A stretch of DNA of 64,000 bases from Verrucomicrobiota bacterium (GTDB taxonomy: Bacteria; Verrucomicrobiota; Verrucomicrobiia; Limisphaerales; JACPZS01): positions 1-64,000 of the forward strand of contig JACPZS010000161.1 of the NCBI GenBank assembly GCA_016195385.1, written 5' to 3'. Positions 21,121 through 43,967 of this stretch are shown one piece after another. The notes below the pieces were generated by a model. The model was not told the DNA's origin and ran no database searches. It saw only the letters and a list, made by a program, of their open reading frames with translations. Made by a program: the position numbers and the translations under genes. How positions within the stretch are numbered: the stretch's first letter is position 1; each line of letters begins with the position of its first letter.

Positions 21121-24100
21121 TCACGCCGCCTTTGCTTCGGCAAGCGCCTCATCGAGGCAACTTGCGGCGGTCGGGAGTATGCGCCGCAAGTCGGCGAGAC
21201 GTTCGTTGAGTGCGCGAATCACGGTGCCGGCATTCGTCTCGATCAAGCGGCGGTACCATTTCAAAAATTCCTGGCTCGTCTCGATTTCGTTCGCCGGAGG
21301 CGCGAGTTTGCCCACGTTACCGTTGAGGACTTCGCAAACGATCAACGCGGCGAATTGGCCCGGCTGTGTCGGCGAGTGCGCCTTGCGCCACCACGGCAAG
21401 GCTGCTTTGGCGTCGCCGTTGAGCAGCAGCGCCTCGGCGCGATGGAGCGCAAGTTGTAAATTCTCCGGGAAGAATCTTACCGCTTCGCCCGTCCAGTCGG
21501 CAGCGAATTCCGCAAAGCCGGGTGTGCGCAGCGCGATGTATCCGCCCGCGAGCCACGCGGATTCGTCCTGCGCGGATTCGGTGACGAGCGCGTGCAGTTG
21601 TTTGATCGCGTCGAGCGCGCGGCTTTGTTCGGCGAGAAACTTTGCGTAGTCGAAGCGCGCCGGACGCGAAGTCGCATCATCGGCGAGCGCGGCTTGAAAG
21701 GCTTTTTCCACGTCGGCGGGTTTTCCAATTTTCGCGAGACACATCGCGAGGCAATGCTGCGGCGCGGCTTTACGGATGTCTTTGTTCACCGGACAGAGCG
21801 CGGGTTGATTTCGCTTCGCCAGGCACTCGCGCATCTGCGCGGCAGCTTCGACCGGCCGTTGCAATTCCATCAACGCGAGGCCGAGTGTGAAATGGAGCGA
21901 CGCCGTAAGACCAGCGGATTTCGCCAGCGGCGCTTGGAGCAGACGCACAATTTGGTCGAACTGTTTCGCGCCCATCAAATGTGTGGCGAGTTGCGTCAGC
22001 AGCGTTTCGCGCAGTTCGGGCACGACCTGGCTCGCCGGCAGCGCGGACATCAAGTGAAACGCCTCCCAGTATTGTTCGAGGCCGGCTTCCAATTGACCGG
22101 AGCGCACGAGTTCGAGGCCGAAGTTCATGATCAAGTTAGGCTCGTTGGGTAGTTCTTCGATCGCGCGTTCGAGCAGGCGCAAATTGCGCGCGACTTTGTG
22201 GCGATCCTGCACGACGGCTTTGGTGTAGCCGTGATGGAGCAACTTCGCCGTGCCGAGCCGGTTTTCCAGATTCCACTCCTGGCGGCGCACTTCGAGACTG
22301 CTGAACACTTGCTCGTGGATGCGGCCAACAAAAAACAGACCCGGGGCATTACGAAACAATCGCGGCACGTAACTGCAACCTTCTTCTTCCGGATCGATAA
22401 TCGGCACGCGATACGCCATCACGTCCGGTGCCTGCATTTCTTTCAACAGCGCAGCGCGGCTCTCCGGCAGCAACTCCTCGTCCGCGTCCAAAATCAAAAT
22501 CCAATCTCCGGTCGCGTGCTCTAGCGCGGCGTTGCGCGCGGCGCTGAAATCATCGCACCACATGAACGAATGAACTTCCGCGCCGAACTCTTTGGCAATT
22601 TCGACGGTGCGATCCGTCGAGCCGGTGTCCACCACGACAATTTGTTGCGCGAATTCGCGCACCGACTTTAAGCAGCCTGCGAGAAAGCGCTCTTCATTTT
22701 TCGTGATGAGACAAACCGTGAGTGTGGGCGTGGACGAATCACGCAGCAGCGCTTCAAGCAACGGCGGCAGCGCGGCTTGAATGCCCATTTTCTTGTTCGG
22801 CGCACGGAGAAATTGCTGCGCCGGACGCCACTTCGGCACCAGGGCCAATGCACGATCCGCGCAGAATTTGACGAGCGAAGTGTCGTCGTGGATGCGGGCA
22901 ATCTCTGCCAGCAACAGCCAGCCTTCGGGATGGAATGGCCGAGCGACAATCGCTTGAGCCGTGGTTTCCCAAGCAGCCGCAAGTTGATTTTCTTTCAACT
23001 GCGCGCGGGCTTGCACGAGGTTTCCAACTTTCGCTGTTTCGGGCAGGACGAGCGGCTGCGGCTTGCGGGCGCGACGTTTCGCGATTGCATCCGCTTCGGC
23101 CTGCCGGCGCGCAAGCAACTCGCGCGCGCACTGGGCGGTCGCTTGAGCAGCGCGCGCCCACGTCCACTCGCGGCGCACATGCGCGCTCGCGGCGCTTCCT
23201 TTCGCGCGGGCGTCGTTGGGTTGCGAGTGGACGTGACGCATCTGCTGACCGAGCGCGTCGGCGTCCGGTTCGAGCCACCAACCGTTGCCGGCGAGCGGCA
23301 TTCCGCTGACTTCCGGGCCGAGCGAATGACGCCGGGCTGGAATGCGAAAAGCAAATTCATCTGTGGCAAAATCATCCGTCGAACCACCGGCAGTGACGAT
23401 GACCGGCAGACCGCACGCCATTGCTTCGAGCACGGGCAGGCCGAAACCTTCGCCGCGGTATGGATGCACGAGACAATCGCACGCCGCGTACAGACCGGGC
23501 ATCGCGTCGGGCGGCAATTCTTGATCGAGATAGAGAATCGCGGGCGCGCTGGGGTTCGCGGCGAGCGCCTTGATTTGCTCCGCGAGCGTCTGGCCCGCAT
23601 AAACCGTGCTGCCGCCGAAATCTTTAATCACGAGGCACACGTCATCGGCAGCGGTGAAATTCTGCAAATACGCTTTCAACAATACGTCCGGCCCTTTGCG
23701 CTGAATGGTCCCGCCGACGAACAGAAATTTGAACTTCTTATTCGTGGCGAGCGGCAGTGGTTTCACTTCCGGGCGAAAGTGTTCCGGGTCAATGCCAAGC
23801 GGCACGACTTTCACTTTTGCCGGATCGACGCCGGAGTCGATGTAGGCTCGGCGCGTGTGATGCGAATTGACCCACGCTTCGTCCACTTTGCCGAGTTGCT
23901 TGACCCATTCCGCGGGCAGCACGCCAAATTCCCACGGCTGCATCATCACCCAAGCGCCGCGTTCGGGCGCGGTCCAGTCCGGCGGCCAGGCTTGGCGAAT
24001 GGTGAGCTGGGTTTGCTTCGACGCTTGCGGTTTCAAGCGCCGCGCGAAATCACGCAGTGAAGCGTCGGACGGAGCTTGCGCGCTCGTGGTGTTCTGGCCG

Positions 24101-27100
24101 ACGCAGGTCAATTGCACGCCGGGCAGTTTGGAAAGTTGTTGAGCGAATTCGCGATTGACGTACGACAGGCTGCCGAAATCCAGGAATGAACCTTCCCAGG
24201 CGACGTGAATAGATTGCGAGTTTGGTTTCGGCTGCGGCAAAGAACGCGCCGCCATAGCGAGGCAAACGGGCGTGATTAACTTTTGTTCGATGACTTCGAG
24301 CCGCGCCACAACTTGCGCGGCGACGGCTTCGCAACTGAAGCGCGCCTGCATTCGCGAACGCGCGACTTTTCCTTTTGCCACAGCTTCGGCGGGGTTTTGC
24401 TGCACGCGGCGCATCAATTCGCGCAAATGATTTTCCTTCGGATCGGCCCAGCGATGCCCGCGATAATGCCACAGCTCCGGCTCCGTGCGCGTGACTTCCA
24501 CCAACTCGTAGTCGATCAAGTAGGAATTCTCCGCATTCATGAACGCAGTGTTGCCGCTCCAATTCGTCGCGATGACGGGCACGCCCATCATCATCGCTTC
24601 GTGATGCGGCCGCCCCCAGCCTTCGCCGCGACTCGGCGCGACGAGGCAATCAACGGCTTTGTAAAGGCGCGGCAGTTCCGCAGTGGGAATTTGTTCCGCC
24701 AGAATTTCGATGCGCGGCAGTTGCTTGTCACCGAGCACAAGTGTCGCGGCGTGTTGATCAATCAACCGGCGAATTGTCTGCGTCGGATCGCCGTCCGGCT
24801 GATTGACGAGATACGCGCGGAGATAAAGACAGACATCGTCCTGCGCGGAGAACTCGCGCAGATACGCGGACAACAGCACATCCCCGCCCTTGCGCGACGA
24901 CCATTCAAACACGGAAAGGAAATTGAATTTGGCGCGATTCGGCAGCGGTAGCGCTGTGTGGCGCACGGGATCAAAATGGTTTGCATCGACCGCGCCGGGA
25001 ATCACGACAAGCTTGTCGCGCTCGACGCCGCTGGCCGCGAACGTCTCACGGTTGAACTCGCTCGGCACCCACACTTCGTCCATCTGATTGCAGCGCGTGA
25101 CCCACGCGAGCGGCAGGCGATCCGTTTCGAACATCGTGCGGCCGATGTTGTACGCTGCGCCGGGTTGCGGCGCAAAACTGCTGCCCGGCGTATGCGTGAC
25201 GCAGATTTTGCCGGCGACTTCCGCGCGCGAACGCAGATGCTCGCTGAGGTGTTTCTGCAAATTCTTCGGAAGCCCCTCGACGAAGGATTTGGATTTGGTC
25301 TTCGCAACAGCGAAGAAATCGAGCTTGAGCGAACGCGGGAGATCTTGCGTTAGCGAAAATGCTTCGCTGCAATAGCCACTGGGATTTTGCCACGGCGCGA
25401 ACCAGACGACGTCGCGATGCGCAACTTCTAGCGGTTGTAGCGTGGTTGTGACAGGCGACTGCGGCGGCGTGGGTTTGATTTGCAATATCGGTGACGGAAA
25501 ATTGCCCGGAACCGTGACCCTCGTTGGCTGCGATGTCAGGCCCAGCATTTCTTCCCACACCGCGATGGAGGCGCGCGCGGTGTTTTCCCAGGAAAATTTC
25601 GCGGCCTGCGCGCGCCCTTTCACGCGCATCGCGTCGCGCTGTCTGGGGTTCTTCAGCAGTTCGACCATCGCGCGGCCGATGGCGGCGACGTCGTTCGGCC
25701 GGAACATCAACGCGGCGTCGCCCGCGACCTCGGGAATGGACGAGACGCCCGTGGTGATGACTGGACAATCCTGCGCCATCGCCTCCAACACGGGAAAACC
25801 AAAACCTTCCCACATGGAGAGGAAGAGCAATGCGACGGCATCGCGGTAGAGCACTTCGAGATCGGCGCGTGGGATGAAGCCGGTGAAAATGATGTCGCGC
25901 ATTTTCATCTGCTCGCAATGCTCGGCGATTTGCTTGAGGAAATGTTCTTTCTGTCCGACGACGACGAGTTGCGCGCGCGCGGCGCCGCGCATGGCGCCCA
26001 TCGCTTGAATTACGGCGGTGAAATTTTTGTGCGGATCGAGCGAGCCGACATGCAGGAAAAACGGCTGCGTGACGCCGTATTTTTTGCGGATGTCGCGGAT
26101 CACTGCCGGGGAAATCTGCGGCTGCGTTTCGGCACGATTCAACCCGGCCATGATCGTATGCACGCGGTCAGCGCCGAGGAGTCCGCAATTGATCACTTCC
26201 TGGCGCGTGCATTCGGAAATTGCCAGCAGGCGCGGGGCGCGCGCGGCCAGTTGTGCCAACCGTTCAAGGTAAGCGTGCTGGGCCGGCTTTTTCCAGCTAT
26301 CGATGTAAAAACGCAACGGCGTGACGTCATAAAAAATCGAAGTTGTTTCAACTCCCGACAACCGTTGCATTGGCGAGTCGAATCCCGGCGCGAGCGTCAG
26401 CGGGTCGGGGATGTGATACAGCGCCACGTCCGCCACTTTGACTTCCGCAAGTGACTTGACGCGCACGTTCGGCAGTTTGAGCAGCCGTGAAATCGCTTCA
26501 CTCGTTCCCGCCGGATCGCCGAGAATCCAAAATTCCCAGTCCGGCTTCAACTCGGCGCATTTTTGCAGATGATGAAACGCGTAGTGGCCGACGCCGCGAG
26601 CCATCGAATCCCCGCAATAAAACGTCTGGCCATCCACGGCGATGATTGGCTTGCCAATGGAGGAACGTTTGGCGGGACGCGCGGAAGCGGCAGGCGCGCT
26701 GGACGCTGGCGCAGTTTGCAACTGCGACTGGAGGAGACGAAGCTGCGTGGCTTCATCCAGCAGTCCGTTCACCTCAGCGAGCAGGATGCGGAACTCGATC
26801 ATCGCTGGCACGACCAAGTCGCCCGTCGATTCGAGCGGCGTCCCTTGCGCGAGGGCGGTGAGCGCCTTATCCACACGCATGTCCGCGATGCGAAATTGCA
26901 AATCCGTCAACGGTCGCCGCGACTGCGCGGCCAGCCACGCGGTTTTCTGTTGGAGCGTATCGCCGACCAGCAGATGCTCGCCGGGCACGGCGCGGAAAGG
27001 TTTGGCGAAGGCATCCTTGCGCACGTAGCCGTGGCGGACGTACGAGCTGAACGGCGTGAGGATGATGCCGAAGAGTTGCGTCGTCGCGTCCTCGAACCAG

Positions 27101-28554
27101 GTGTTTTGCGTGCCGAAGAACAGAAATTTTTTCGTGTGATGCGGATTCGCGTCGAAGCGCTGCTTCTCGCGGCGCGCGAACGTGTGCAGCCGTTTCATCA
27201 TCAACGCGGCAAAGCGTCCGCCTTCCGGTGAAGGTTTCGGCACGGTGTAGCCCGCGCGATTTTTCGTCACCGGAAAATTACCCATCCAAAGATCCAGGCA
27301 CACCACGAATGAACGCTCATAAAGTTGCCCCACCTCGGTCGCGACACATTCCTGCGGCAACGGCCCGCGCCCGTCACCGGCAGACATGGCTTCGGGATCG
27401 AAAAGAGTTTTCCCTGTGTGGCCGAAGTTCTTGCGGAACTCGGTGATAAGTTTGATGAACCCGGCGTTGCCGCCCACGTAACCGATGTCCGCCGTCGCGG
27501 GAATCTGACTGAGATGATCCGTGATGTACGGCAGCGCATGCTGGATGTCGTAGAGCAGGCCGTGATTGTAGGCTTCGCCGACGAGCGCGTTGTGGAGCAT
27601 GGGCGCGTCGAGGCCAGGCAGCATTTGCTCGAGCACGCGGAGGTAACGATTTTCGTGTTCGGCGGTCAGTCGAATTTCTTCGACGGGTTCGTGCGGCATG
27701 CCCCAGGTTTCGGCCTGTTGGGGAATGTACGGCGTGTGAACGTCGTTGACGAAATGGCGCCAGTCGTTGGCGGTGCCGCCTTCGGCGGTGTGCATCATCG
27801 TGTTCACGCGCGTGTGATCGCAGTGATACGAATGATAATGGTCGAGCAGCGAAGAAGTTTTGCCGTTCAAGAGAAACAGCCGGCGGCAAAGATTGCTGTC
27901 CACGTGCCAGCCGAGCACCATCTGCTCGTTCATGCCGTGGATGGCGAACATCTGCTGGCGCGGCGCGAGTTGGAAATCGCCGGGGCCGTCGAAAACATTT
28001 TCCGGATTGCCGATCACGCATTCGTTGAGGTGCAGCCGGCGGCCCCAGTGCTTGAATTGTTCGATGGTTTCCTGCGGCTTCAGCCGATCTGTGGATTCCC
28101 ACAAAATTTCGGGCATCTCGAAACGCGGCAGTTCATAGAGACAATCAGGTAATTTGGCGACGATTTCCGAAAGCGACTGACCGGGCTTGACAGGCACGAA
28201 CACGATGTCGGTGTTCGTGTTGAGAATCCAGCGGTTCTTCGGATTCGAACGGCGCATGGCCACGTTGCGGCACAGCGGTTCGAGCACTTTCATCTTCGTG
28301 CCGTTCTTGCCCTTCTCGTACGACGCGGGACGGAAGCGGAGAATGCGAAGCAATTTCTTGGCGCGCTCGGTCAGCGTGTCGCGGATCGACTCGGGAAACG
28401 TCGGCAGGTCATCCGGCGTGTTGCAATCGACAAAAATGATCTCATCATCCGGATGCGTGAGCACTTCCGCAATGCAGTTGAAACTGAGCGCCGCGCGCTT
28501 GTGGAGGTTGTAGCCGTACGAATCGTTGCGGCCGTAAAGGATGACAGAAATCAT
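21121..28554 (-). CDS. Giant multi-module glycosyltransferase (about five GT modules plus TPR)
   Basis: This single frame of 2,477 residues is the last gene of the flagellin-linked cluster. About 1-330: a GT-A-like module (MISVILYGRNDSYGYNLHKR, DDEIIFVDCNT, WILNTNTDIVFVP). About 400-620: an unassigned region. About 650-1050: GT4 module 1 (FLHVGSLDPHKNF, EGFGFPVLEAMAQDCPVITT near 915). About 1080-1430: GT4 module 2 (EGWGRPHHEAMMMGVPVIAT near 1305). About 1460-1830: GT4 module 3 (KFLFVGGTIQRKGPDVLLKA, EGFGLPVLEAMACGLPVIVT near 1698). About 1940-2190: a GT2 module (TVCLITKNEERFLAGCLKSV, VVVDTGSTDRTVEIA, ILDADEELLPE near 2021). The rest is TPR-like. No signal peptide or membrane helix is seen, so it probably works in the cytoplasm, adding several sugars in turn; the acceptor is inferred to be flagellin or a lipid-linked glycan. 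Confidence 0.93.
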   Translation of the reverse strand: MISVILYGRNDSYGYNLHKRAALSFNCIAEVLTHPDDEIIFVDCNTPDDLPTFPESIRDTLTERAKKLLRILRFRPASYEKGKNGTKMKVLEPLCRNVAMRRSNPKNRWILNTNTDIVFVPVKPGQSLSEIVAKLPDCLYELPRFEMPEILWESTDRLKPQETIEQFKHWGRRLHLNECVIGNPENVFDGPGDFQLAPRQQMFAIHGMNEQMVLGWHVDSNLCRRLFLLNGKTSSLLDHYHSYHCDHTRVNTMMHTAEGGTANDWRHFVNDVHTPYIPQQAETWGMPHEPVEEIRLTAEHENRYLRVLEQMLPGLDAPMLHNALVGEAYNHGLLYDIQHALPYITDHLSQIPATADIGYVGGNAGFIKLITEFRKNFGHTGKTLFDPEAMSAGDGRGPLPQECVATEVGQLYERSFVVCLDLWMGNFPVTKNRAGYTVPKPSPEGGRFAALMMKRLHTFARREKQRFDANPHHTKKFLFFGTQNTWFEDATTQLFGIILTPFSSYVRHGYVRKDAFAKPFRAVPGEHLLVGDTLQQKTAWLAAQSRRPLTDLQFRIADMRVDKALTALAQGTPLESTGDLVVPAMIEFRILLAEVNGLLDEATQLRLLQSQLQTAPASSAPAASARPAKRSSIGKPIIAVDGQTFYCGDSMARGVGHYAFHHLQKCAELKPDWEFWILGDPAGTSEAISRLLKLPNVRVKSLAEVKVADVALYHIPDPLTLAPGFDSPMQRLSGVETTSIFYDVTPLRFYIDSWKKPAQHAYLERLAQLAARAPRLLAISECTRQEVINCGLLGADRVHTIMAGLNRAETQPQISPAVIRDIRKKYGVTQPFFLHVGSLDPHKNFTAVIQAMGAMRGAARAQLVVVGQKEHFLKQIAEHCEQMKMRDIIFTGFIPRADLEVLYRDAVALLFLSMWEGFGFPVLEAMAQDCPVITTGVSSIPEVAGDAALMFRPNDVAAIGRAMVELLKNPRQRDAMRVKGRAQAAKFSWENTARASIAVWEEMLGLTSQPTRVTVPGNFPSPILQIKPTPPQSPVTTTLQPLEVAHRDVVWFAPWQNPSGYCSEAFSLTQDLPRSLKLDFFAVAKTKSKSFVEGLPKNLQKHLSEHLRSRAEVAGKICVTHTPGSSFAPQPGAAYNIGRTMFETDRLPLAWVTRCNQMDEVWVPSEFNRETFAASGVERDKLVVIPGAVDANHFDPVRHTALPLPNRAKFNFLSVFEWSSRKGGDVLLSAYLREFSAQDDVCLYLRAYLVNQPDGDPTQTIRRLIDQHAATLVLGDKQLPRIEILAEQIPTAELPRLYKAVDCLVAPSRGEGWGRPHHEAMMMGVPVIATNWSGNTAFMNAENSYLIDYELVEVTRTEPELWHYRGHRWADPKENHLRELMRRVQQNPAEAVAKGKVARSRMQARFSCEAVAAQVVARLEVIEQKLITPVCLAMAARSLPQPKPNSQSIHVAWEGSFLDFGSLSYVNREFAQQLSKLPGVQLTCVGQNTTSAQAPSDASLRDFARRLKPQASKQTQLTIRQAWPPDWTAPERGAWVMMQPWEFGVLPAEWVKQLGKVDEAWVNSHHTRRAYIDSGVDPAKVKVVPLGIDPEHFRPEVKPLPLATNKKFKFLFVGGTIQRKGPDVLLKAYLQNFTAADDVCLVIKDFGGSTVYAGQTLAEQIKALAANPSAPAILYLDQELPPDAMPGLYAACDCLVHPYRGEGFGLPVLEAMACGLPVIVTAGGSTDDFATDEFAFRIPARRHSLGPEVSGMPLAGNGWWLEPDADALGQQMRHVHSQPNDARAKGSAASAHVRREWTWARAAQATAQCARELLARRQAEADAIAKRRARKPQPLVLPETAKVGNLVQARAQLKENQLAAAWETTAQAIVARPFHPEGWLLLAEIARIHDDTSLVKFCADRALALVPKWRPAQQFLRAPNKKMGIQAALPPLLEALLRDSSTPTLTVCLITKNEERFLAGCLKSVREFAQQIVVVDTGSTDRTVEIAKEFGAEVHSFMWCDDFSAARNAALEHATGDWILILDADEELLPESRAALLKEMQAPDVMAYRVPIIDPEEEGCSYVPRLFRNAPGLFFVGRIHEQVFSSLEVRRQEWNLENRLGTAKLLHHGYTKAVVQDRHKVARNLRLLERAIEELPNEPNLIMNFGLELVRSGQLEAGLEQYWEAFHLMSALPASQVVPELRETLLTQLATHLMGAKQFDQIVRLLQAPLAKSAGLTASLHFTLGLALMELQRPVEAAAQMRECLAKRNQPALCPVNKDIRKAAPQHCLAMCLAKIGKPADVEKAFQAALADDATSRPARFDYAKFLAEQSRALDAIKQLHALVTESAQDESAWLAGGYIALRTPGFAEFAADWTGEAVRFFPENLQLALHRAEALLLNGDAKAALPWWRKAHSPTQPGQFAALIVCEVLNGNVGKLAPPANEIETSQEFLKWYRRLIETNAGTVIRALNERLADLRRILPTAASCLDEALAEAKAA

Positions 28555-28580
28555 AAAGATTTTTCCGAATTGGCTTCAAT

Positions 28581-29963: not shown

Positions 29964-29981
29964 GGTGAGCTAAGTTGGGAT

Positions 29982-31223: not shown

Positions 31224-31236
31224 AGCGTGATTTGAT

Positions 31237-32517: not shown

Positions 32518-32545
32518 GGGAAGATAATTGGAGTGAGTGATTTCA

Positions 32546-34731: not shown

Positions 34732-35423
34732 GCGTCTTTTCGTGATGGCAGTTCAAAGCGCAGACCGGCGACCTCCATGAATGGGCCGGGGAATCGGCTG
34801 TGACGAACGGCGCGTTCCTTTCGGGCGATAAGCTCCGGCGAATCGTTCGGCGAGAGCGTCATCCATTTTTCAAACTCTTTCCGCGTGATTGCTTTGCGCC
34901 GCCAGGAGTCGCCGGAGGGTTCGACAAGCCCGCTGCTCGCGACGCTGGCGAGCACTTCGTAGAACTGCATCAACGAGTAATTCAGGCTGCGGTTAAAGAG
35001 CTGCTCGCAGGTCTCCGCACGCAGGATGGGAAAACGAAGCACGCGGAGGATCGGGCCGGCGTCCACTTGACCTGTCATTATGTGAGCCGTCACGCCGAAG
35101 TCAGAGGCATTCTCGAAAAGCGCGAAACTGGCGGAGCCAATGCCGGGCCATTCGGGAGGTGCCGGATGAAAATTGATCGCGGCGCGCGTCACCTTCGCGA
35201 GCAGTGCTTCCGGCAGGATCACCGGGGAGAGAAAATTGAAAAGAAAATCGATCGGTTGCCGGGAAAGCATTTGATCCAACTCGGGAGGCAGTGATTTTTG
35301 ACCGCGTCCCTGCCGGCCGATGAACCGGACTTCGAAGGCGCTCCGCGCGAATTCCTCGGCCGAGTTGGCCAGGTGCTCGTGGTCCGAGGTGAGCAGTACG
35401 CAAGAGTAAGGAAGTGGGTTCAT
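34728..35423 (-). CDS. Formyltransferase-family protein (probable sugar N-formyltransferase)
   Basis: This is a 231-residue protein of the methionyl-tRNA formyltransferase fold. The catalytic region is clear: INFHPAPPEWPGIGSASFAL (His of the Asn-His-Asp set) and TAHIMTGQVDAGPILRV (the Asp). It lacks the C-terminal tRNA-binding domain of true Fmt enzymes (about 310 residues), and lies between a nucleotide-sugar dehydrogenase and an aminotransferase, overlapping the latter by ATGA. The likely reaction is transfer of a formyl group from 10-formyl-tetrahydrofolate to the amino sugar made by the neighbouring aminotransferase. N-formyl sugars are known from O-antigens and surface glycans; the assignment to the flagellin glycan is inference. 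Confidence 0.85.
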   Translation of the reverse strand: MNPLPYSCVLLTSDHEHLANSAEEFARSAFEVRFIGRQGRGQKSLPPELDQMLSRQPIDFLFNFLSPVILPEALLAKVTRAAINFHPAPPEWPGIGSASFALFENASDFGVTAHIMTGQVDAGPILRVLRFPILRAETCEQLFNRSLNYSLMQFYEVLASVASSGLVEPSGDSWRRKAITRKEFEKWMTLSPNDSPELIARKERAVRHSRFPGPFMEVAGLRFELPSRKDA

Positions 35424-35432
35424 GCGGGCGCG

Positions 35433-36692
35433 TCACGCGACCTGGGCTAGTCGCTCGTGAACCTCTTTCTCTTTCACTGTTTGCCGCGGTATTACTCCCC
35501 ACACATCCACCAACTCGGTGTCGCTCGGAACAAAAAGCTTTTTGTAAGCGCTGTGCGGCGCGCCGACGATGACGACATCGCTGGTTGAAAGAAGTTCCTC
35601 CTTGCTGACAAACGTCGGATCCTGCGCGAATTCGTCGGAGTAGGACACCTGCGCGCCGTGGAATCGCAGAATCTTGCCGAGCTTGTAGGAGAGCGAATCG
35701 CGCGTGTCGTCGATGTCCGCCTTGAAGGCCATGCCGAGGATTCCCACTCGCGTGTGCGCCAGATCACGCTTCTGGCGCAACTGCTCGACGATAAAATTAG
35801 GCAGCCCTTCATTCACCATCATGGCCGCCTGGCCGAGCGCGAAATTGTAGTTGTTGAACGCGGAGAGTTGCATCGTGTCCTTGAGCAGACACGGCCCGGC
35901 GGCAAAGCCTGCGGCCGGCAGGCTTGCCGCGCGGCCGTAGCCTTGGATCATCGCTTCGCGGACGTGATTGAAATCCACGCCGAAGCCTTGGGCCATCATG
36001 TAAAATTGATTTGCGGCGGCGAACTGGATGTAGCGCCACGCGTTGGAAAAAAGTTTCGCCAACTCTGCCTCCTCGATGGAGACGGGAATGACGCGCGGCG
36101 CAATCCGGGAGAAGAGTTGCATGGCGTCGCGCTGCGCCGCATCGGTGAGGCCGGCGGCGAGCTGGGGTAACTCCTTGAGTTCGCGAATCGCGTGTCCCTG
36201 CGCGATGCGTTCCGGACAGTACGCGATCCGCCACGGCCCGCTGCCGTCCCGGCTCAACGCGTCGTGAACGGCGCGACAGGTGCGCGGGAAAACGGTACTA
36301 CGAATGATCAGCGTCTGCGCGGGCGAAAGGTGCGGCCGTAGGAGCGCGAACAAATCGAGCAACGCCTTGAGCTTCGGATTAAGGTATTCGTCCACCGGCG
36401 TGCCGACGGCGATGATGATATGGCGCGCTTTCGCAACGTCGCACACATCCGCAGTCAATTCCAAATTGCGCCCGAGCACCGCTTGGAGAATCGGTTCCGC
36501 GGCGTATTCGACGAATGGCATCTTCCTCTGGCGAACATGCGCCAGGGCTTCTGTGTTCGTGTCGAACAAAGTGACGCGCGCGCCGCTTTCGGCGAAAGCC
36601 AGCCCCAGCGGCAAACCGACGTGGCCTAATCCGCCGACAATGCAAATGTCGGTCGAGAATTGATTGGCTGCGGAAGACGAGTTGAAGTTCAT
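35433..36692 (-). CDS. Nucleotide-sugar dehydrogenase (UDP-sugar 6-dehydrogenase type), first of two
   Basis: This 419-residue protein starts with the NAD-binding motif CIVGGLGHVGLPLGLAFAES. Further on: IIIAVGTPVDEYLNPKL, ELAKLFSNAWRYIQFAAANQ, the catalytic cysteine in FAAGPCLLKDTMQLSAF, and VGILGMAFKADIDDTRDSLS, as in UDP-glucose/UDP-ManNAc dehydrogenases. It oxidises C6 of a sugar nucleotide to the uronic acid in two NAD-dependent steps. ATGA overlap with the Nudix gene upstream; 9 bp to the formyltransferase. A second, only distantly similar member of the family lies at 39046. Exact sugar unknown. Confidence 0.92.
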   Translation of the reverse strand: MNFNSSSAANQFSTDICIVGGLGHVGLPLGLAFAESGARVTLFDTNTEALAHVRQRKMPFVEYAAEPILQAVLGRNLELTADVCDVAKARHIIIAVGTPVDEYLNPKLKALLDLFALLRPHLSPAQTLIIRSTVFPRTCRAVHDALSRDGSGPWRIAYCPERIAQGHAIRELKELPQLAAGLTDAAQRDAMQLFSRIAPRVIPVSIEEAELAKLFSNAWRYIQFAAANQFYMMAQGFGVDFNHVREAMIQGYGRAASLPAAGFAAGPCLLKDTMQLSAFNNYNFALGQAAMMVNEGLPNFIVEQLRQKRDLAHTRVGILGMAFKADIDDTRDSLSYKLGKILRFHGAQVSYSDEFAQDPTFVSKEELLSTSDVVIVGAPHSAYKKLFVPSDTELVDVWGVIPRQTVKEKEVHERLAQVA

Positions 36693-37276
36693 GCGGCCTG
36701 GGAGGTTGTCCGTGGCGTCAGTTGTTCCAGTCCGCTGATCCGCAATTCGTACAGAAACAAGACGCCGATGTGGAGCTGAAGACCGAACGCGCCCGAGCGG
36801 ACGAGATTCTTGAGTTGATCGAAGGTGACGAATTCGAGATCCATGCCTGGTTCGTGAATAAATGCCGCATTCGGTTCGCCGGTTTCGACGAAGAACGCGT
36901 GTTGCTTGTTTTCCAGCCGGCCCGTGTCGGCGAAAAACGAGCCGAGGTGCGTGAGCGACTTCACTTCGAGGCCGGTCTCCTCGCGCAATTCGCGGCGACA
37001 GGTTTGTTCCGGGTCTTCATTGGCTTCGAGCAAGCCGGCCGGCAGTTCCCAAGTGCAGGCTTCAATTGCTGGCCGAAACTGGCGGACCACCGGGAACAAA
37101 CCGCCCGGCGTGCGTGCCAGGATCGTGATGTAGTCGCGCGGCGCGAGAAAATGGTAAACCTCCGGCGGTTGGCCGGGGGCAAATTCGACTTCTTTTTCAA
37201 TCAGCCGGACCCACGGTGAAATGCGCGTTTCGCGGCGGGAAAGGATGCGGGCGGGCGAAGGGCGGACGGTTTTCAT
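36689..37276 (-). CDS. Nudix hydrolase (ADP-ribose/ADP-sugar pyrophosphatase type)
   Basis: ATG 37276 gives 195 residues; the longer reading runs into nadE. The Nudix box is complete: GLLEANEDPEQTCRRELREE followed by TGLEV (GX5EX7REUXEEXGU). Flanking sequence (YITILARTPGGLFPVVRQFR, CTWELPAG, FFADTGRLENKQHAFFVETG) resembles ADP-ribose or ADP-sugar pyrophosphatases. The gene starts 5 bp after the NAD synthetase stop and overlaps the sugar dehydrogenase by ATGA, so it is made with NAD-making and NAD-using enzymes. It may recycle ADP-ribose from NAD breakdown or hydrolyse a sugar nucleotide; I cannot decide which. Confidence 0.93.
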   Translation of the reverse strand: MKTVRPSPARILSRRETRISPWVRLIEKEVEFAPGQPPEVYHFLAPRDYITILARTPGGLFPVVRQFRPAIEACTWELPAGLLEANEDPEQTCRRELREETGLEVKSLTHLGSFFADTGRLENKQHAFFVETGEPNAAFIHEPGMDLEFVTFDQLKNLVRSGAFGLQLHIGVLFLYELRISGLEQLTPRTTSQAA

Positions 37277-37281
37277 GCGAG

Positions 37282-39012
37282 TTACTCGAAGGCGCTTTGG
37301 TAGCGGTTGGTGATGGGCAGACGCCAGTCCTTGCCGAAGGCGCGCGAAGTGATCTTCACGCCGGGCGGGCTTTGGCGGCGTTTGTATTCGTTGCGATCCA
37401 CGAGCCGAATGACGCGACGTACGCTGTCCGGATCGCCGCAGCGCGCGACGATTTCCTCGAAGCCGCGATTGGCCTCCACGTAATCGCACAGAATCGGATC
37501 GAGCACGTCGTACTCGGGCAACGAATCAGAATCTTTTTGATCCGGCCGCAATTCGGCCGACGGCGGTTTCTCGATCGTGCGCGCCGGAATGATTTCGCGG
37601 CCGGCGATTGAATTGCGATAACGGCTCAGTTCGTAAACGAGAAGTTTCGGCACGTCCTTGATGACCGCGAAGCCGCCGGCCGTGTCGCCGTAAAGCGTCG
37701 AGTAGCCGACGGCGGACTCGCTCTTGTTGCTCGTCGTCAACACGAGCGAGCCAAACTTGTTTGAAAGCGCCATCAGAATCGTGCCCCGCACGCGTGGCTG
37801 AAGATTTTCTTCCGTCAAGTCGGTTGGCCGCGCGCCGAACACCGGCTTGAGCAAATCGAGGAAGCTCTGAAAAGTTTTGTCGATCGGCACTTTAAGAAAT
37901 TCGATGCCGAGGCTGCCGGCGAGTTGCTCGGCGTCTTCGAGGCTGTGCGACGACGAATAGCGCGTGGGCATCGCGACGCCGGTGACGTTGTTCGCACCGA
38001 GCGCGTCGGCGGCGATGGCGGCGGTCAGCGCCGAATCAATGCCGCCCGACAAACCGAGCACCACTTTTTGAAAGCCATTCTTGTGAACGTAATCGCGCGT
38101 GCCGAGGACGAGCGCCTGGTAAACTTCGGCGACGCGTTCGAGGGGTGTGGCGATCGAAGTTGTCGAGCGCGCTTTCGCGGGAGTCGGCAGCGCACGGAGC
38201 GAGATTTTTTCGTAGTCCGCCACGGCGGCACTCGTGCGCTTGCGGCGGCGCGGATCGGAAAGGCGGGCACGAAAGACCTGGCGAAAATCCAAATCCGCGA
38301 TGATGAAATCTTCCTCGAATTGTTTTCCGCGCGCGAGGAGTTCGCCTTGCGGACCGCAGATCAAACTTTGGCCGTCGAAGATCAATTCGTCCTGTCCGCC
38401 GACGAGATTGCAGTACGCGACGAAAGCCGTGTTGTCCGAGGCACGCGCGGCGATCATGCGTTCGCGCGTCACACCTTTGCCGAGATGATAGGGCGAAGCC
38501 GAAAGATTGATGAGTAATTCCGCGCCGCCGAGGGCGGCCTGGCCTTCGTACGGACCGTTCGGATACCAGATGTCTTCACAAACGCTGACGCCGAACACCG
38601 AGCCGTTGCGGGAGAAAACTTGTTTCTGCTGGCCGGCGCCGAAGTAGCGATTCTCGTCGAACACACCGTAGTTCGGGAGGAATTGCTTTTTGTAAAGCCC
38701 AACAAGCTGGCCGTCGTGCGCGATGGCGGCAGCGTTGAAAAGATCGTCTTCGACGTGAACGCAACCGATGATCGCCGTGAGTCCGCGCGTGGCGGAGACA
38801 ATTTCGTTGAGCGACTGCGAAGCGGCGCGAACGAAGTCCGGCTTCAACAAAAGATCTTCCGGCGGATAACCGGTGATGGCGAGTTCGGGGAACACCACGA
38901 GGTCAACCCCCGCCGCGCGCGCGTCGTTCAGGCGGGCGATGATCTTCGCCCGGTTCCCGGCGAGGTCGCCGACCGTCGTGTTGATTTGGGCGAGGGCGAG
39001 GCGGAGCGGCAT
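37282..39012 (-). CDS. nadE: Glutamine-dependent NAD+ synthetase
   Basis: This 576-residue two-domain enzyme has an N-terminal nitrilase-type glutaminase (about 1-260; FPELAITGYPPEDLLLKP with the catalytic Glu, the active-site Cys in GVSVCEDIWYP near 143) and a C-terminal ATP-dependent amidating domain (about 290-576; LGLSGGIDSALTAAIAADAL, PTRYSSSHSLEDAEQLAGSL, TTSNKSESAVGYSTLYGDTA). It turns deamido-NAD into NAD using glutamine-derived ammonia and ATP. It is a housekeeping gene, yet here it is embedded in the sugar-modification operon (33 bp after one dehydrogenase, 5 bp before Nudix). Confidence 0.97.
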   Translation of the reverse strand: MPLRLALAQINTTVGDLAGNRAKIIARLNDARAAGVDLVVFPELAITGYPPEDLLLKPDFVRAASQSLNEIVSATRGLTAIIGCVHVEDDLFNAAAIAHDGQLVGLYKKQFLPNYGVFDENRYFGAGQQKQVFSRNGSVFGVSVCEDIWYPNGPYEGQAALGGAELLINLSASPYHLGKGVTRERMIAARASDNTAFVAYCNLVGGQDELIFDGQSLICGPQGELLARGKQFEEDFIIADLDFRQVFRARLSDPRRRKRTSAAVADYEKISLRALPTPAKARSTTSIATPLERVAEVYQALVLGTRDYVHKNGFQKVVLGLSGGIDSALTAAIAADALGANNVTGVAMPTRYSSSHSLEDAEQLAGSLGIEFLKVPIDKTFQSFLDLLKPVFGARPTDLTEENLQPRVRGTILMALSNKFGSLVLTTSNKSESAVGYSTLYGDTAGGFAVIKDVPKLLVYELSRYRNSIAGREIIPARTIEKPPSAELRPDQKDSDSLPEYDVLDPILCDYVEANRGFEEIVARCGDPDSVRRVIRLVDRNEYKRRQSPPGVKITSRAFGKDWRLPITNRYQSAFE

Positions 39013-39045
39013 GATCAGTTTCGGAAAACAAATTTGGCGTGTTGG

Positions 39046-40602
39046 TCAGTTGCCATTGCTGGTGAATTCAATGATGCGATGGCGGTCGGCGGCGGATCGT
39101 TTGCGGACTTTGAGCGGAGATTTTCTTTCGGCGAAATCAGCCGGAGCCACGTTTGCGGCGGGCAATTTCGGATCCGGTTTCTCCAAAATGCGCGGTGTGT
39201 GCAGACCGGGATTCCATAGTTCGATGAGCCGGAGCGCGTTGTCCGCGTCGGCCACACTGCAACCGATGGGGACGTAGTTGATGTGCTCCTGACCGCGCAG
39301 TTCCTTTTCCAAAACGCGCCAGAAATCGACGACGGTGATGGAGCGTTCAAGGCGCGGAAAGTCAGCTGCCTTCAAATTTTGAAACGCCGGATCGGGCGTC
39401 GTGATCAAAACCACTTCCGCCTGCGCGAGACAATCCGCCAGACTGTCGAGCATCAAGATCTGGCCGCGGAATTCAGTGTGCGCCGCGTCGCGGGCGAGCG
39501 GGTCGAACGCGACTACGCGCGCGCCGTGCTTGAACAACTGCCAGGCGATTTCAATCGACTGCGATTCCTCGATGATGTGCGAGTGCGGTTTGTAGGCGAG
39601 GCCCAGAATGGCGACCGTCGTGCCGCGTCTCACGTAAGGCTTGAGATGCTTGACGATGCGCTCGGGCAGCGAGCGATTCGAGCGGTCGGTGGTTTCCGAA
39701 ATGTCCGCGCTGGTGCCGAGCGCGCGGGCGAGAAAGCCGAGGGCGACATTGTCGCGCGGGAAACACGGGCCGCCAAAGCCGAGCGCGCCCTTGAGATATT
39801 TCGCACCGACCCGCTTGTCCGCGCCGACGGCGGCGGTGACAACATCGACGTTGCCGCCAGGAATGCGTTCGCACAAATCGGCGAGCATGTTGGCGAAAGT
39901 GATTTTTGTGGTGACGAAGGCGTTGACGGAAATTTTCGTCAGCTCGGCGTTTTCCAAACTCATGCGTTTGCACGGAGCATTGTTCAGCATGATTTGCGAA
40001 TACGCTTTTTCCAAAATGCCGCCGCAACGTTCGTCGAATTCGCCGATGAGCGTGAAGTCGGGGTTCAAAAAATCGCGAATGACACTGCCGAGCGCGATGA
40101 ATTCGGGGCTGTAACACAGACCAAAGTCGCGTCCGCACTGCTTGCCGGATTCCTGTTCGAGAATCGGCAGCAGGCCGTAGCGCATCGAGCCGGGCAGCAC
40201 GGTGCTCGTGAGCACGATGGTGTGATAATCTTTTTTCTTCGCGAGCGCGCGGCCGAGTTCCTTGAATGCCCACGAGGCGTACTGGAGCGAGAACGCGCCG
40301 CGATCATCGCTCGGCGTCGGCACGATGACGAACGTCACGTCAGAACCGAGCACGGCCTCTTCATGGCTGCGTGTGGCGCGAATGCGCTCCTTGTTCGCGG
40401 CGACCATTTCTTCGAGATTGGTTTCCTGGACGGGCGCGTGGCCGGCGGCGAGTTGGTCCACGGCGCGTTGATTGACATCAACGCCGATGACGTGGAAGCC
40501 GCGGCTGGCCATGGCGGCGGCCATGCTCGCGCCAAGTTTGCCGAGTCCGATGATGGAAAATTTCAGGGCGGGTTGCGTGGGGATTGGTGAGGAGGTTTTC
40601 AT
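39046..40602 (-). CDS. Nucleotide-sugar dehydrogenase (UDP-glucose/GDP-mannose type), second of two
   Basis: This 518-residue protein has the NAD motif FSIIGLGKLGASMAAAMASR, VTFVIVPTPSDDRGAFSLQY, AELTKISVNAFVTTKITFAN, the catalytic cysteine in LGFGGPCFPRDNVALGF, and VAILGLAYKPHSHIIEESQS. It is longer than usual (about 430-450) because of a C-terminal tail (about 430-518) containing FWRVLEKELRGQEHINYVPI and a basic, repeat-poor end. It likely oxidises a UDP- or GDP-sugar to its uronic acid. It lies 9 bp downstream of the TPR-methyltransferase gene and 33 bp upstream of nadE. It differs enough from the 35433 dehydrogenase to suggest a different sugar. Confidence 0.92.
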   Translation of the reverse strand: MKTSSPIPTQPALKFSIIGLGKLGASMAAAMASRGFHVIGVDVNQRAVDQLAAGHAPVQETNLEEMVAANKERIRATRSHEEAVLGSDVTFVIVPTPSDDRGAFSLQYASWAFKELGRALAKKKDYHTIVLTSTVLPGSMRYGLLPILEQESGKQCGRDFGLCYSPEFIALGSVIRDFLNPDFTLIGEFDERCGGILEKAYSQIMLNNAPCKRMSLENAELTKISVNAFVTTKITFANMLADLCERIPGGNVDVVTAAVGADKRVGAKYLKGALGFGGPCFPRDNVALGFLARALGTSADISETTDRSNRSLPERIVKHLKPYVRRGTTVAILGLAYKPHSHIIEESQSIEIAWQLFKHGARVVAFDPLARDAAHTEFRGQILMLDSLADCLAQAEVVLITTPDPAFQNLKAADFPRLERSITVVDFWRVLEKELRGQEHINYVPIGCSVADADNALRLIELWNPGLHTPRILEKPDPKLPAANVAPADFAERKSPLKVRKRSAADRHRIIEFTSNGN

Positions 40603-40611
40603 GGGATGATT

Positions 40612-42270
40612 TCAAACGGGTTTTTGAAACAACAAACCGATCGACGTGCAGACAAAATTTCCGAGCAGCAGTTTTAGATGGTTGAGCTGCGGGTGTGTTG
40701 AGTAGGGCGGTACATCGATGTAACGATCCACCGGGCCACTGCCGGGATCGAAGTTAAGTTCGATGCGACTGACGGCAATGCCGTGTTCCGCCGCGATGGC
40801 GCTGGCGATTTCCTCGATGTCGCGCCGGCGATAGAGAACGGTTTCGCCGCTTTCGAGTGTGGCGTCGTTCGAGGAGAGATTGAATTCGGTCGTGTGGACG
40901 GCGACGCCGCCCGGCTTTAAGCAGCGCATTTGATTGAGCAGAAATTCGCGGCCGTGTTCGATCGAGCCGAGGTGCTCGAAGGAGCAGGTGGACCAGGTGA
41001 AATCAAACTGACCGGCCATGAGGTCGGCGGGGATCTGATTCATATCGACCGTGCGGAACTGAACGAGTCGCGCGAACTCCGCGTAATCGCAGATGCCCTC
41101 GATAAAAAGATTTTGGACGCTGCTGCTGTGCTGGTTCGTGTCAACCCAACCGCGTTGCGCGGCGGTTGTGTGATCCAGATCGGTTGCCAGAATCTCACAA
41201 CCATGTTTCGCGAAATAAGCCACGAGATGTTCGCGACCCGTGCCGAAGCCGAGTCCTTTGGATGCGGGCGTCAGCAGACCGCGCTCGCGCAACGCGCGCA
41301 CGATGAAGCCGTATTCCCAATACTTGCGATTGAACTGCTCGGCGGAGAGTTTCAAGTCGCGGCACATTTGTTGAAACCAAGGCTGGCTGTAAGCTTCCTG
41401 CTGGCAAAGTTCGACGGTGATGAGCGGCAGTTTGGCGCGCGGCCCCACCACTTTTTGGGCCGTGGGTGGTTGCGTGAGTTTTTGAAAGTGATCGACCTTG
41501 TCTGCAATCACTCGCGCCAGTGGATGGCTCGCGGGAATTCGCCGCAGCACTTGTTGAAAACAATCCCGCGCGTTCGGCCAAGCGTTCATCGTCACGGCGG
41601 CGAAACCGCGGTTGAGCCACGCCGCCGCTTCCTCTGAAACGCCCGCGAGCGAATACTGTTCGTCGCGCAGCGAAACCCGCGCTGCCTCGGCCTCTGCGAG
41701 CGTGCGTTCCACGACGGCGAGATTCGCGCGCGCGGCTTCGTGCCCGGGATCGGACTGGAGAATTAACTGAAACGCTTCACGAGCTGAGTTCGGATCGCCG
41801 GCTTTGAAGAGGCAAGTGCCCAGCTCCAGCAGCGCGTCGAGATCATTCGGCTGAACCAGTAAAATTTTATGATAGGCTTGCGCAGCTTCGACGAAGCGCT
41901 GCAAACGGAAATGGAGCCGGGCGGACAGACGGAGGATCTCACTGTTGGCGGTTTCGAGTTGGGCGGCTTGACGCGCGTAATGGGCAGCGAGTTCCAATTC
42001 GCCAAGCTGGTCGAGCACCAGCGCGAGATTCACAAAGGCCGGCGCGTGCTGCGGATCAATTTCAGCGGCGCGTTCAAAAGGGCTGCGGGCCGAGGTCAGG
42101 TCGCCGAGTTGGAAATGCGTGTAGCCGAGGGCGACCAGCACTGGAGCGGTGGCCGGTTCCGAGAGGAGCACTTCCTGGAGGCAGTCGCGGGCGCCGGCGA
42201 AATCACGCCCATTGAAGAATTTTTCCGCTGCGGCGAGGGCGGGGGCGGGGTTGATTTCGATCGCGACCAT
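40612..42270 (-). CDS. TPR protein fused to a SAM-dependent methyltransferase
   Basis: This is a 552-residue protein. Residues about 1-290 are TPR repeats (VLVALGYTHFQLGDLTSARS, AFVNLALVLDQLGELELAAH, ALLELGTCLFKAGDPNSARE). The C-terminal half is a class I methyltransferase-like domain: LGFGTGREHLVAYFAKHGCE, ILATDLDHTTAAQRGW, FDFTWSTCSFEHLGSIEHGR and MRCLKPGGVAVHTTEFNLSS. There is a good ribosome site AGGAG 9 nt before ATG 42270. It is the first gene after flagellin (114-bp gap, no clear terminator). TPRs may hold the substrate protein; methylation of flagellin or its glycan is a reasonable guess. The substrate is not shown by the sequence. Confidence 0.88.
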   Translation of the reverse strand: MVAIEINPAPALAAAEKFFNGRDFAGARDCLQEVLLSEPATAPVLVALGYTHFQLGDLTSARSPFERAAEIDPQHAPAFVNLALVLDQLGELELAAHYARQAAQLETANSEILRLSARLHFRLQRFVEAAQAYHKILLVQPNDLDALLELGTCLFKAGDPNSAREAFQLILQSDPGHEAARANLAVVERTLAEAEAARVSLRDEQYSLAGVSEEAAAWLNRGFAAVTMNAWPNARDCFQQVLRRIPASHPLARVIADKVDHFQKLTQPPTAQKVVGPRAKLPLITVELCQQEAYSQPWFQQMCRDLKLSAEQFNRKYWEYGFIVRALRERGLLTPASKGLGFGTGREHLVAYFAKHGCEILATDLDHTTAAQRGWVDTNQHSSSVQNLFIEGICDYAEFARLVQFRTVDMNQIPADLMAGQFDFTWSTCSFEHLGSIEHGREFLLNQMRCLKPGGVAVHTTEFNLSSNDATLESGETVLYRRRDIEEIASAIAAEHGIAVSRIELNFDPGSGPVDRYIDVPPYSTHPQLNHLKLLLGNFVCTSIGLLFQKPV

Positions 42271-42384
42271 GCGTTGAGGCTCCTGGATAATTCGCCCGCT
42301 AGATTTTCATCACGCGTGAGCAGAGTTGATGGGCGGTGTGAATTTTTTAGAATCGACGCAGCGTTGCGCGACACAAGTGAATAT

Positions 42385-43197
42385 TTATTGCAGCAGTCGT
42401 AGCACGCTTTGGGGCAACTGGTTGGCTTGCGCGAGCATCGCCGTGCCGGATTGGACGAGGATGTTGTAGCGGGCGTATTCGGTGGTTTCCTCGGCGATGT
42501 CCACATCCTTGATGCGGGAGGTCGAGGCCGAAAGGTTTTCTTTGGTGACCACGAGTTGCTCGGAGGTGTAGTTAAGCCGCGTTTGGAACGCGCCGAGCAG
42601 CGCACGATCCTGGGCGAGTTGCGTGATGGCGGCTTTGACGTTGGTGAGCGCGGTGGCGGCCGCAGTGGTGGTGGCGATGTTTGAGGTCGGAGTGTTGGTG
42701 GTGGTCGTGTAAGCGGCAACGCTCAGATCCACGCCGGCCATGTTGAAGGTATTGCCTTCGGAATCGATCGTCACGTTGAGGCTCGCGGACGAGAAGAGGC
42801 TGACGCCATTGAAGTCTTTGCCGGCGGCGTTGGTGATGTACGCGGCGAGTTGTGCGAATTCGCTGTCATAAAGCGCACGGTCGCTATTGGACTTGGTGAC
42901 ATCTTGCGAAAGGATGGAAAGTTCGCTCATACGGTCGAGCGCTTTGCCAATCTTCTGGAGGTAGCCGTCCTGGGTCTGCGTGAACGATGTCGCATTGCCC
43001 ACGTTGGATTTGGCGGCGTCCAGACGTTTTATCTGCGCATCCAGGCGCATGGAGACCGCAAGGCCGGCGGCATCATCCGATGGAGAGACGATTTTGGAGC
43101 CGGAGCTCAAGCGATTGAGCGATTTGGCCAGCATGGTTTGACTGGCGGACAGGTTGCTGGCAGCGGCCTGGGCCTGGATGTTGGTGTTGATGACCAT
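42385..43197 (-). CDS. fliC: Flagellin
   Basis: This 270-residue flagellin has the conserved D0/D1 ends: MVINTNIQAQAAASNLSAS, SLNRLSSGSKIVSPSDDAAG at the N terminus, and SASTSRIKDVDIAEETTEYA, RYNILVQSGTAMLAQANQLP, QSVLRLLQ at the C terminus. The variable middle (about 130-185) is short, with a Thr/Ser/Ala-rich stretch (AYTTTTNTPTSNIATTTAAA) that offers many O-glycosylation sites. No export peptide is expected, since flagellin leaves through the flagellar type III system. Its leader (31 bp after csrA) carries CsrA-type motifs. The next 13 genes on the strand look like its modification machinery. No hook or basal-body genes are in the window. Confidence 0.97.
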   Translation of the reverse strand: MVINTNIQAQAAASNLSASQTMLAKSLNRLSSGSKIVSPSDDAAGLAVSMRLDAQIKRLDAAKSNVGNATSFTQTQDGYLQKIGKALDRMSELSILSQDVTKSNSDRALYDSEFAQLAAYITNAAGKDFNGVSLFSSASLNVTIDSEGNTFNMAGVDLSVAAYTTTTNTPTSNIATTTAAATALTNVKAAITQLAQDRALLGAFQTRLNYTSEQLVVTKENLSASTSRIKDVDIAEETTEYARYNILVQSGTAMLAQANQLPQSVLRLLQ

Positions 43198-43210
43198 ATT
43201 GCTTTAACTT

Positions 43211-43239
43211 TCCTTTTTGGTTGTTATTCTAACTTCCTT
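43211..43239 (-). promoter_or_regulatory. Two CsrA-type AAGGA motifs in the flagellin leader
   Basis: On the minus strand AAGGA occurs at 43239-43235 (overlapping the last codons of csrA) and at 43215-43211 (the flagellin ribosome site, 13 nt before ATG). Both sit in similar contexts (CCAAAGGAAGTTAG and CCAAAAAGGAAAGTTA). Paired ANGGA sites with one on the Shine-Dalgarno are the usual mark of CsrA translational repression, as in the hag leader of Bacillus. RNA structure was not computed. Confidence 0.55.
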
Positions 43240-43516
43240 TGGTGGACAGAAACGGCTCCAAGGTCGGTCGTCTTGAAGCCGCGTCGGCAGCCGACATTGT
43301 TTTCGCGGGCAGTTTCGGCACGGGTGGCCGGCCGCGGGTGAGAGCTTCCTGGTTGGCCCGCTGGATCTCCTCGTAAACTTCGTGGCGATGCACGGGCACT
43401 TCCAAGGGTGCCTGGATGCCGAGTTTGACGACCTCACCATCGACGCGCACGACTTTCACGCTGATGCGTCCATCGATGATGATGCTTTCGTTAATTTTTC
43501 GGGAAAGGATTAGCAT
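43229..43516 (-). CDS. csrA: Carbon storage regulator CsrA
   Basis: This 95-residue protein begins with the CsrA core MLILSRKINESIIIDGRISV, VKLGIQAPLEVPVHRHEVYE, EIQRANQEA (about 1-60). CsrA dimers bind ANGGA motifs in mRNA leaders and block ribosome access; here the likely target is the flagellin mRNA just downstream. The tail of about 30 residues is Pro/Ala/Ser-rich and longer than in E. coli CsrA (61 residues). It lies between fliW and flagellin, the arrangement in which FliW binds CsrA and is displaced by newly made flagellin. Confidence 0.97.
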   Translation of the reverse strand: MLILSRKINESIIIDGRISVKVVRVDGEVVKLGIQAPLEVPVHRHEVYEEIQRANQEALTRGRPPVPKLPAKTMSAADAASRRPTLEPFLSTKGS

Positions 43517-43541
43517 AAGGGGCAGGCTGCGGAGTCATGAA

Positions 43542-43967
43542 TCAAGCGGGAAGCGGATGTTGCAATGAGTACTCGGCGGCGTTGACCGGGATGACTTGTT
43601 TGCCCATGAGAGTTCGTCGGTTGAGCACGATTGGCCCCTTCAAATTGACGGTCGCTTTGCCCTGCGGCCGCAGCGTGACGATGTTGAACACGAGCGCGTC
43701 CGCCGGCTCTTCGAGGCCGAGAAATTCCGCATCTTCCGCGCTGATGTCGGGATGATAGTCCGGGATGATCGTGAGCGGGAAAAGCACCAGGAAGGCCAGG
43801 TTGGGATCGTCCATGACTTGCAGCCAGAGAAACGGGGCTTCCTCCGGATCGGCCAGCAGAACATACTTCTTGATCTTCTCGAATCCCAAGAGTCCGAGGG
43901 GCAGGTGGATGACATTGTCCTGCTCAGTTTCGAGCAATTCTGGTTCGGTTAACTCGGCAAATTTCAT
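43542..43967 (-). CDS. fliW: Flagellar assembly factor FliW
   Basis: ATG 43967 gives 141 residues, the usual FliW length; an upstream in-frame start at 44021 would place the candidate sigma-54 promoter inside the gene. Family features are DNVIHLPLGLLGFEKIKKYV, PFLWLQVMDDPNLAFLVLFP, DALVFNIVTLRPQGKATVNL and LKGPIVLNRRTLMGKQVI. FliW is a protein antagonist of CsrA and also binds flagellin, giving a three-way switch that matches flagellin synthesis to export. It is the first gene of the flagellin operon, 25 bp before csrA. Confidence 0.95.
   Translation of the reverse strand: MKFAELTEPELLETEQDNVIHLPLGLLGFEKIKKYVLLADPEEAPFLWLQVMDDPNLAFLVLFPLTIIPDYHPDISAEDAEFLGLEEPADALVFNIVTLRPQGKATVNLKGPIVLNRRTLMGKQVIPVNAAEYSLQHPLPA

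Follow-up and report, generated by a model that had tools for sequence, protein, structure and literature searches.

A run of 15 minus-strand genes in the 64,000-nucleotide stretch of DNA analyzed here (the window) is probably an operon for the O-glycosylation of flagellin, with genes for making donor sugars and a giant multidomain glycosyltransferase (GT) that would initiate the glycan and take part in extending it. The case rests on comparative evidence rather than gene names. A preliminary description of this DNA had proposed flagellin glycosylation, and the proposal is supported by the homology of the giant protein to GmaR and SunS, by its co-occurrence with flagellin among relatives of the same order, and by its place directly behind flagellin in relatives. 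The features of the locus, in order of transcription, are as follows.

43994-44009, minus strand: predicted sigma-54 (-24/-12) promoter TGGCATATCGCCTGCT, 42 bp upstream of the fliW ATG
43542-43967, minus strand: fliW, flagellar assembly factor and CsrA antagonist (PF02623, 5.9e-36)
43229-43516, minus strand: csrA (PF02599, 8e-22; TIGR00202, above cutoff)
42385-43197, minus strand: flagellin, 270 aa, with a Ser/Thr-rich central loop (PF00669, PF00700)
42271-42384, minus strand: 114-bp gap behind flagellin, no terminator-like structure in scans (fold z-score, 0.22)
40612-42270, minus strand: TPR and SAM methyltransferase (TPR, Methyltransf_11)
39046-40602, minus strand: UGD1, UDP-glucose 6-dehydrogenase-like (PF03721/00984/03720; 3vtf, 2.8e-65)
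37282-39012, minus strand: glutamine-dependent NAD+ synthetase (NadE), full-length (NF010588, 728 bits; cutoff, 479)
36689-37276, minus strand: Nudix hydrolase, ADP-sugar diphosphatase-like (PF00293)
35433-36692, minus strand: UGD2, second nucleotide-sugar dehydrogenase, UDP-ManNAcA-dehydrogenase-like (TIGR03026, above cutoff; 4r16, 1.3e-31)
34728-35423, minus strand: sugar N-formyltransferase-like (PF00551; weak matches to PurN and GDP-perosamine formyltransferase)
33553-34731, minus strand: DegT-family sugar aminotransferase, LegC/perosamine-synthase-like (PF01041, 1e-109; 3bn1, 8.1e-73)
32546-33556, minus strand: SDR nucleotide-sugar dehydratase/epimerase, LegB-like (PF01370; 8rdg, UXS1)
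31237-32517, minus strand: sugar 3-C-methyltransferase, CMT (PF08484/PF08421; 4rv9, D-mycarose 3-C-methyltransferase, 1e-66)
29982-31223, minus strand: GT2 glycosyltransferase (PF00535, 2.1e-21)
28581-29963, minus strand: FkbM-family methyltransferase (PF05050, 2e-8)
21121-28554, minus strand: giant multidomain glycosyltransferase, 2477 aa (Pfam, NCBIfam, and PDB sequence searches)

From fliW to the gene for the giant 2477-residue protein (21121-43967), all 15 genes are in frame, and each is backed by family homology in Pfam, NCBIfam, and PDB sequence searches. The gaps between them, read from fliW in the direction of transcription, are 25, 31, 114, 9, 33, 5, -4, 9, -4, -4, 28, 13, 18, and 26 bp, a range of -4 to +33 bp with the sole exception of the 114 bp after flagellin, and G+C varies little over the length of the operon (0.56-0.62). 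Coordinates, frames, and gaps thus agree with the minus-strand order and close spacing first described; the earlier count of 12 genes after flagellin also stands, but only ten had been named, the NAD+ synthetase and the Nudix hydrolase having been left out.

A strict sigma-54 pattern occurs twice in the window (about 0.35 occurrences expected per 64 kb), and one of the two sites lies just before fliW. Among the 17 relatives that have fliW-csrA-flagellin together with upstream sequence, this site is kept in 16 (14 strict and 2 looser matches), mostly at -29 to -46 relative to fliW, and the genome carries rpoN as well as a FliA-type sigma factor. Inside the island there is no strict sigma-54 match. 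Sigma-70 scan matches do not rise above chance, and Rfam and tRNA scans gave no matches. The absence of a terminator-like structure from the 114-bp gap comes from two scans, in one of which a match also turns up in 17% of random 200-bp windows. With a sigma-54 site just before fliW, none of strict form inside the island, and no terminator-like structure in the gap, the sequence is compatible with a single transcription unit of 15 genes, which we consider plausible. In two relatives' loci (L048 and L050), a strong terminator-like hairpin separates flagellin from the giant GT gene, and read-through past flagellin may therefore be partial elsewhere in the order; terminator results were mixed, and we neither claim nor exclude read-through as an order-wide rule. 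The 600-bp space between fliW and the divergent cheD also holds a sigma-28-like site, TAAA-N14-GCCGATA (44237-44261, minus strand), about 270 bp upstream of fliW. The second strict sigma-54-like site (3589-3604, minus strand) is some 60 bp upstream of a gene for a circularly permuted ATP-grasp protein (2024-3526), with an Alpha-E gene (983-1972) behind it.

Read from its N terminus, the giant protein comprises about 630 residues without a Pfam match, three GT4 domains, TPR, GT2, and TPR. Its GT2 domain matches GmaR (1.8e-32) and SunS (4.7e-23) among PDB sequences, the DxD region is kept, and TPR repeats come after GT2 as in GmaR, giving an architecture of the GmaR/SunS type. By homology, we predict that the C terminus is a protein glycosyltransferase of this type. 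GmaR is a GT2-TPR protein that transfers GlcNAc to Listeria flagellin (PMC9638930); in Listeria monocytogenes, this flagellin O-GlcNAc transferase is also the MogR antirepressor. Here, by contrast, the homologous module is the C-terminal part of a 2477-aa multi-GT protein, and no MogR partner is shown. The GT2 domain is likewise homologous to that of the peptide S-glycosyltransferase SunS, but the protein scores only 84.4 bits against the SunS equivalog TIGR04195 (cutoff, 350), and no bacteriocin-type substrate is seen nearby. Among named genomes, the N-terminal domain is closest to proteins of Trichlorobacter/Geobacter (45-47%), in a search whose named matches were confined to Geobacter-type and other deltaproteobacterial genomes; in a deltaproteobacterial MAG (L037), a relative of it and a flagellin gene are about 9 kb apart. 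That flagellin gene (L037:21096-21508) ends the deltaproteobacterial glycan cluster that holds the N-terminal-domain relative. For residues 1-633, a structure predicted from four sequences had a mean pLDDT of 54.9 and was not used for a fold search.

Across relatives, the TPR-GT2-TPR part is constant and the N-terminal parts vary (a HAD-like domain, more or fewer GT domains), which would fit a conserved flagellin-recognizing initiator with exchangeable extension domains. It is quite possible, if short of probable, that the protein is a flagellin glycan synthase in one polypeptide, specific to the order, in which exchangeable N-terminal and GT4 domains are joined to a flagellin-recognizing TPR-GT2-TPR initiator, and that N-terminal swaps and cassette insertion rewrite the filament glycan between species. 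If this is true, the C-terminal module adds a new enzyme to the protein glycosyltransferases that act on flagellin, one whose extension domains can be swapped, useful in protein glyco-engineering and in explaining surface variation of environmental bacteria.

The distribution of the giant GT follows that of flagellin. At E below 1e-60, a homolog occurs in 22 of the 26 relatives in the order that have flagellin and in 0 of the 31 that lack it (Fisher p = 4e-12, from a test that takes no account of phylogeny and on assemblies of which many are fragmented); the 26 include G053, in which flagellin is represented by a short fragment only. When only the more complete genomes are counted, the figures are 14 of 18 and 0 of 21. 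Giant GT and flagellin share contig and strand, no more than about 20 kb apart, both in this genome and in ten relatives (G007, G011, G013, G016, G022, G024, G037, G046, G048, and G049); such linkage is seen in loci L064, L048, L039, L040, L044, L050, L063, L065, L066, and L067. In G048, the flagellin-like gene behind fliW-csrA is divergent. The contig breaks off not far upstream of the gene in eight other relatives with a giant GT, and four (G003, G004, G041, and G051) carry a giant GT on a contig without a flagellin match. The order in L064 is fliW-csrA-fliC-giant GT, with a 4-bp overlap between the flagellin stop codon and the giant gene's start, and that in L048 is fliW-csrA-fliC-giant GT-fliC2, behind which come open reading frames resembling fliD and fliS, an identification made by eye only. 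Tandem large flagellins of 423 to 680 aa precede the giant GT in L066 and L067. What recurs is the C-terminal half of the giant protein; what otherwise comes after flagellin differs by species. Greedy two-strand ORF calling in the relatives produced spurious ORFs and was replaced by same-strand calling and tblastn. At the same 1e-60 threshold, with only the best candidates per genome scored, 11 flagellated genomes from other orders of the phylum have no homolog, and the partnership of giant GT and flagellin therefore looks order-specific. For a poorly studied group this points to a simple, testable rule: a giant multi-glycosyltransferase accompanies the flagellin gene throughout one order, with a variable set of genes between the two.

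These distributions also bear on whether the genes are an O-antigen or capsule cluster for surface polysaccharide that merely abuts a flagellin operon. Such clusters share the enzyme families seen here, and GT4 and GT2 domains are generic; however, none of the 15 genes is assigned by Pfam to a flippase, polymerase, or exporter family, and the terminal gene is homologous to flagellin and peptide glycosyltransferases and follows flagellin across genomes. We consider a polysaccharide cluster very improbable.

In the proposed flagellin glycosylation operon, FliW and CsrA are present and adjoin flagellin, as expected for FliW-CsrA-flagellin homeostasis, and the three genes are contiguous in most flagellated relatives of the order; the Ser/Thr-rich loop of flagellin is conserved in kind. 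The preliminary description had regarded flagellin as the third gene of such an operon as new, a claim weakened by the conservation of this triad and by a layout resembling that of the Clostridioides difficile F1-F2 region. The neighborhood search it had suggested recovered the triad; the sugar block is absent behind flagellin in most relatives. The genome holds further flagellin copies, complete on contig C146 and partial at the ends of C60 and C161, and no homologs of the operon's glycan genes occur in the 20 kb around the complete copy on C146.

It is also conceivable that the giant protein regulates flagellar transcription as well, or that CsrA/FliW control of flagellin translation imposes polarity on the glycan genes and so ties the supply of glycan to the synthesis of flagellin. 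Either would add to the flagellin-operon explanation rather than compete with it. GmaR combines glycosyltransferase and antirepressor, fliW and csrA share the operon, and the single GGA of the fliC leader lies at the Shine-Dalgarno site, but no antirepressor domain was detected in the giant protein, and only about half of the relatives share the leader GGA. Across the relatives, candidate CsrA sites in the leader show no conserved pattern and no conserved hairpin. We judge such a dual role or coupling unlikely.

Among the sugar genes, both UGD1 (motif GGPCFPRD) and UGD2 keep the catalytic Cys. The LegC model scores best for DegT (287 of 420 bits), with perosamine synthase also close, and the LegB model scores best for SDR (138 of 475 bits); neither protein reaches the equivalog cutoff for the LegB/LegC pathway, and assignment of the exact sugar from enzyme models was abandoned, as the specific models remain below cutoff. 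Together with the formyltransferase, the LegB- and LegC-like scores suggest a 4-formamido-4,6-dideoxy sugar as the product. A second NAD synthetase elsewhere in the genome (C65:17988-19619) makes the copy within the operon (37282-39012, minus strand) a paralog.

Homologs of several of these genes occur together in relatives without a flagellin match: UGD2 (43-50%) and Nudix (34-36%) in G018, G002, and G025, and SDR (64-68% identity) and CMT (65-68% identity) in G002 and G025. Nudix adjoins UGD2 in L060 and L062 and is near it in L061, all from flagellin-negative relatives. The neighbors of Nudix and UGD2 in L060, L061, and L062 are SDR, C-methyltransferase, Gfo/Idh, or GT2 genes. Judged from these homologs, the predicted sugar supply block is a portable insert, not one specific to flagella. 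A dedicated flagellin sugar pathway, as first proposed, is not supported: conservation of the sugar genes in nonflagellated relatives, seen here for Nudix, UGD2, SDR, and CMT homologs, had been set in advance as a finding that would refute it. Behind flagellin, G041 carries genes for a GHMP kinase, a nucleotidyltransferase, a B12-radical SAM protein, and DegT, and G037 has relatives of CMT and DegT; with such unlike gene sets, the glycans are likely to differ between species.

The same homologs invite a refinement of the flagellin-operon explanation that overlaps with it, in which the giant GT (with GT2 and the methyltransferases) forms the core flagellin glycosylation machinery and the NadE-Nudix-UGD2-formyltransferase-DegT-SDR-CMT block is a general surface-glycan supply that also feeds cell-surface polysaccharide. 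The grouping of Nudix-UGD2 and SDR-CMT homologs in nonflagellated L060-L062, the absence of the block behind flagellin in most relatives, and a NadE with a paralog elsewhere and no obvious glycan role all favor it. The block nevertheless sits between flagellin and the giant GT, its genes overlap, no internal promoter was found, and L040 has a related CMT and DegT at the same place behind flagellin. On balance we find this composite reading possible but somewhat doubtful.

As a flagellin glycosylation operon, the locus would work as follows. The sigma-54 promoter before fliW would drive fliW and csrA, for control of flagellin, then flagellin itself, and then the glycan genes. In the cytoplasm, the C-terminal TPR-GT2-TPR module would recognize flagellin and attach a first sugar, probably HexNAc, to Ser/Thr of the short central loop, and the N-terminal and GT4 domains of the giant protein and the separate GT2 would lengthen the chain. 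Donor sugars would be made by 4,6-dehydration (SDR), 4-amination (DegT), and N-formylation, with 3-C-methylation, two 6-oxidations, and FkbM-type O-methylation as further making or decorating steps. In this scheme we infer the single transcript, the attachment to flagellin, the order of sugar addition, and the exact sugars. Against the operon reading we counted the sub-cutoff LegB, LegC, and SunS scores, the sugar-gene homologs in nonflagellated genomes, the L048/L050 hairpins, and the four relatives whose giant GT has no flagellin match on its contig.

Glycan genes adjoin the flagellin gene both here and in relatives, as in known flagellin glycosylation islands. A similar layout is that of C. 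difficile, where the gene for the glycosyltransferase CD0240 and further glycan genes come behind fliW-csrA-...-fliC (PMC10889297). There too fliW and csrA are in the region and sugar genes are in the flagellin locus, and an initiating GT gene and sugar genes come at once after flagellin; here, in contrast, fliW-csrA-fliC is contiguous behind a sigma-54 site, the sugar set differs, and the GT-like module that would initiate the glycan is part of a protein with several other GT domains, whose gene comes last. Geobacillus carries variable sugar-gene islands of 0.9-30.4 kb at the flagellin locus (PMC5109656), a variability shared by the present locus, in which, unlike those islands, GT domains are fused in one protein and none of the 15 proteins has a Maf-type Pfam match. 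The combination of TPR and GT also resembles FlmG of Caulobacter crescentus, a cytoplasmic flagellin glycosyltransferase whose TPR binds flagellin (PMC7591256); FlmG differs in being a GT-B enzyme that uses pseudaminic acid, and we claim no sequence relation to the giant GT. Our literature search found no account of flagellin glycosylation in Verrucomicrobia. The locus is a lineage-specific variant of the C. difficile F1-F2/Geobacillus island type; its novelty lies in the giant enzyme formed by fusion, specific to the order and linked to flagellin, and in the variable cassette ahead of the gene for this enzyme.

Elsewhere in the window, the product of a minus-strand gene at 54826-59778 is 1650 aa long and combines immunoglobulin-like domains with DUF5122 beta-propeller repeats.
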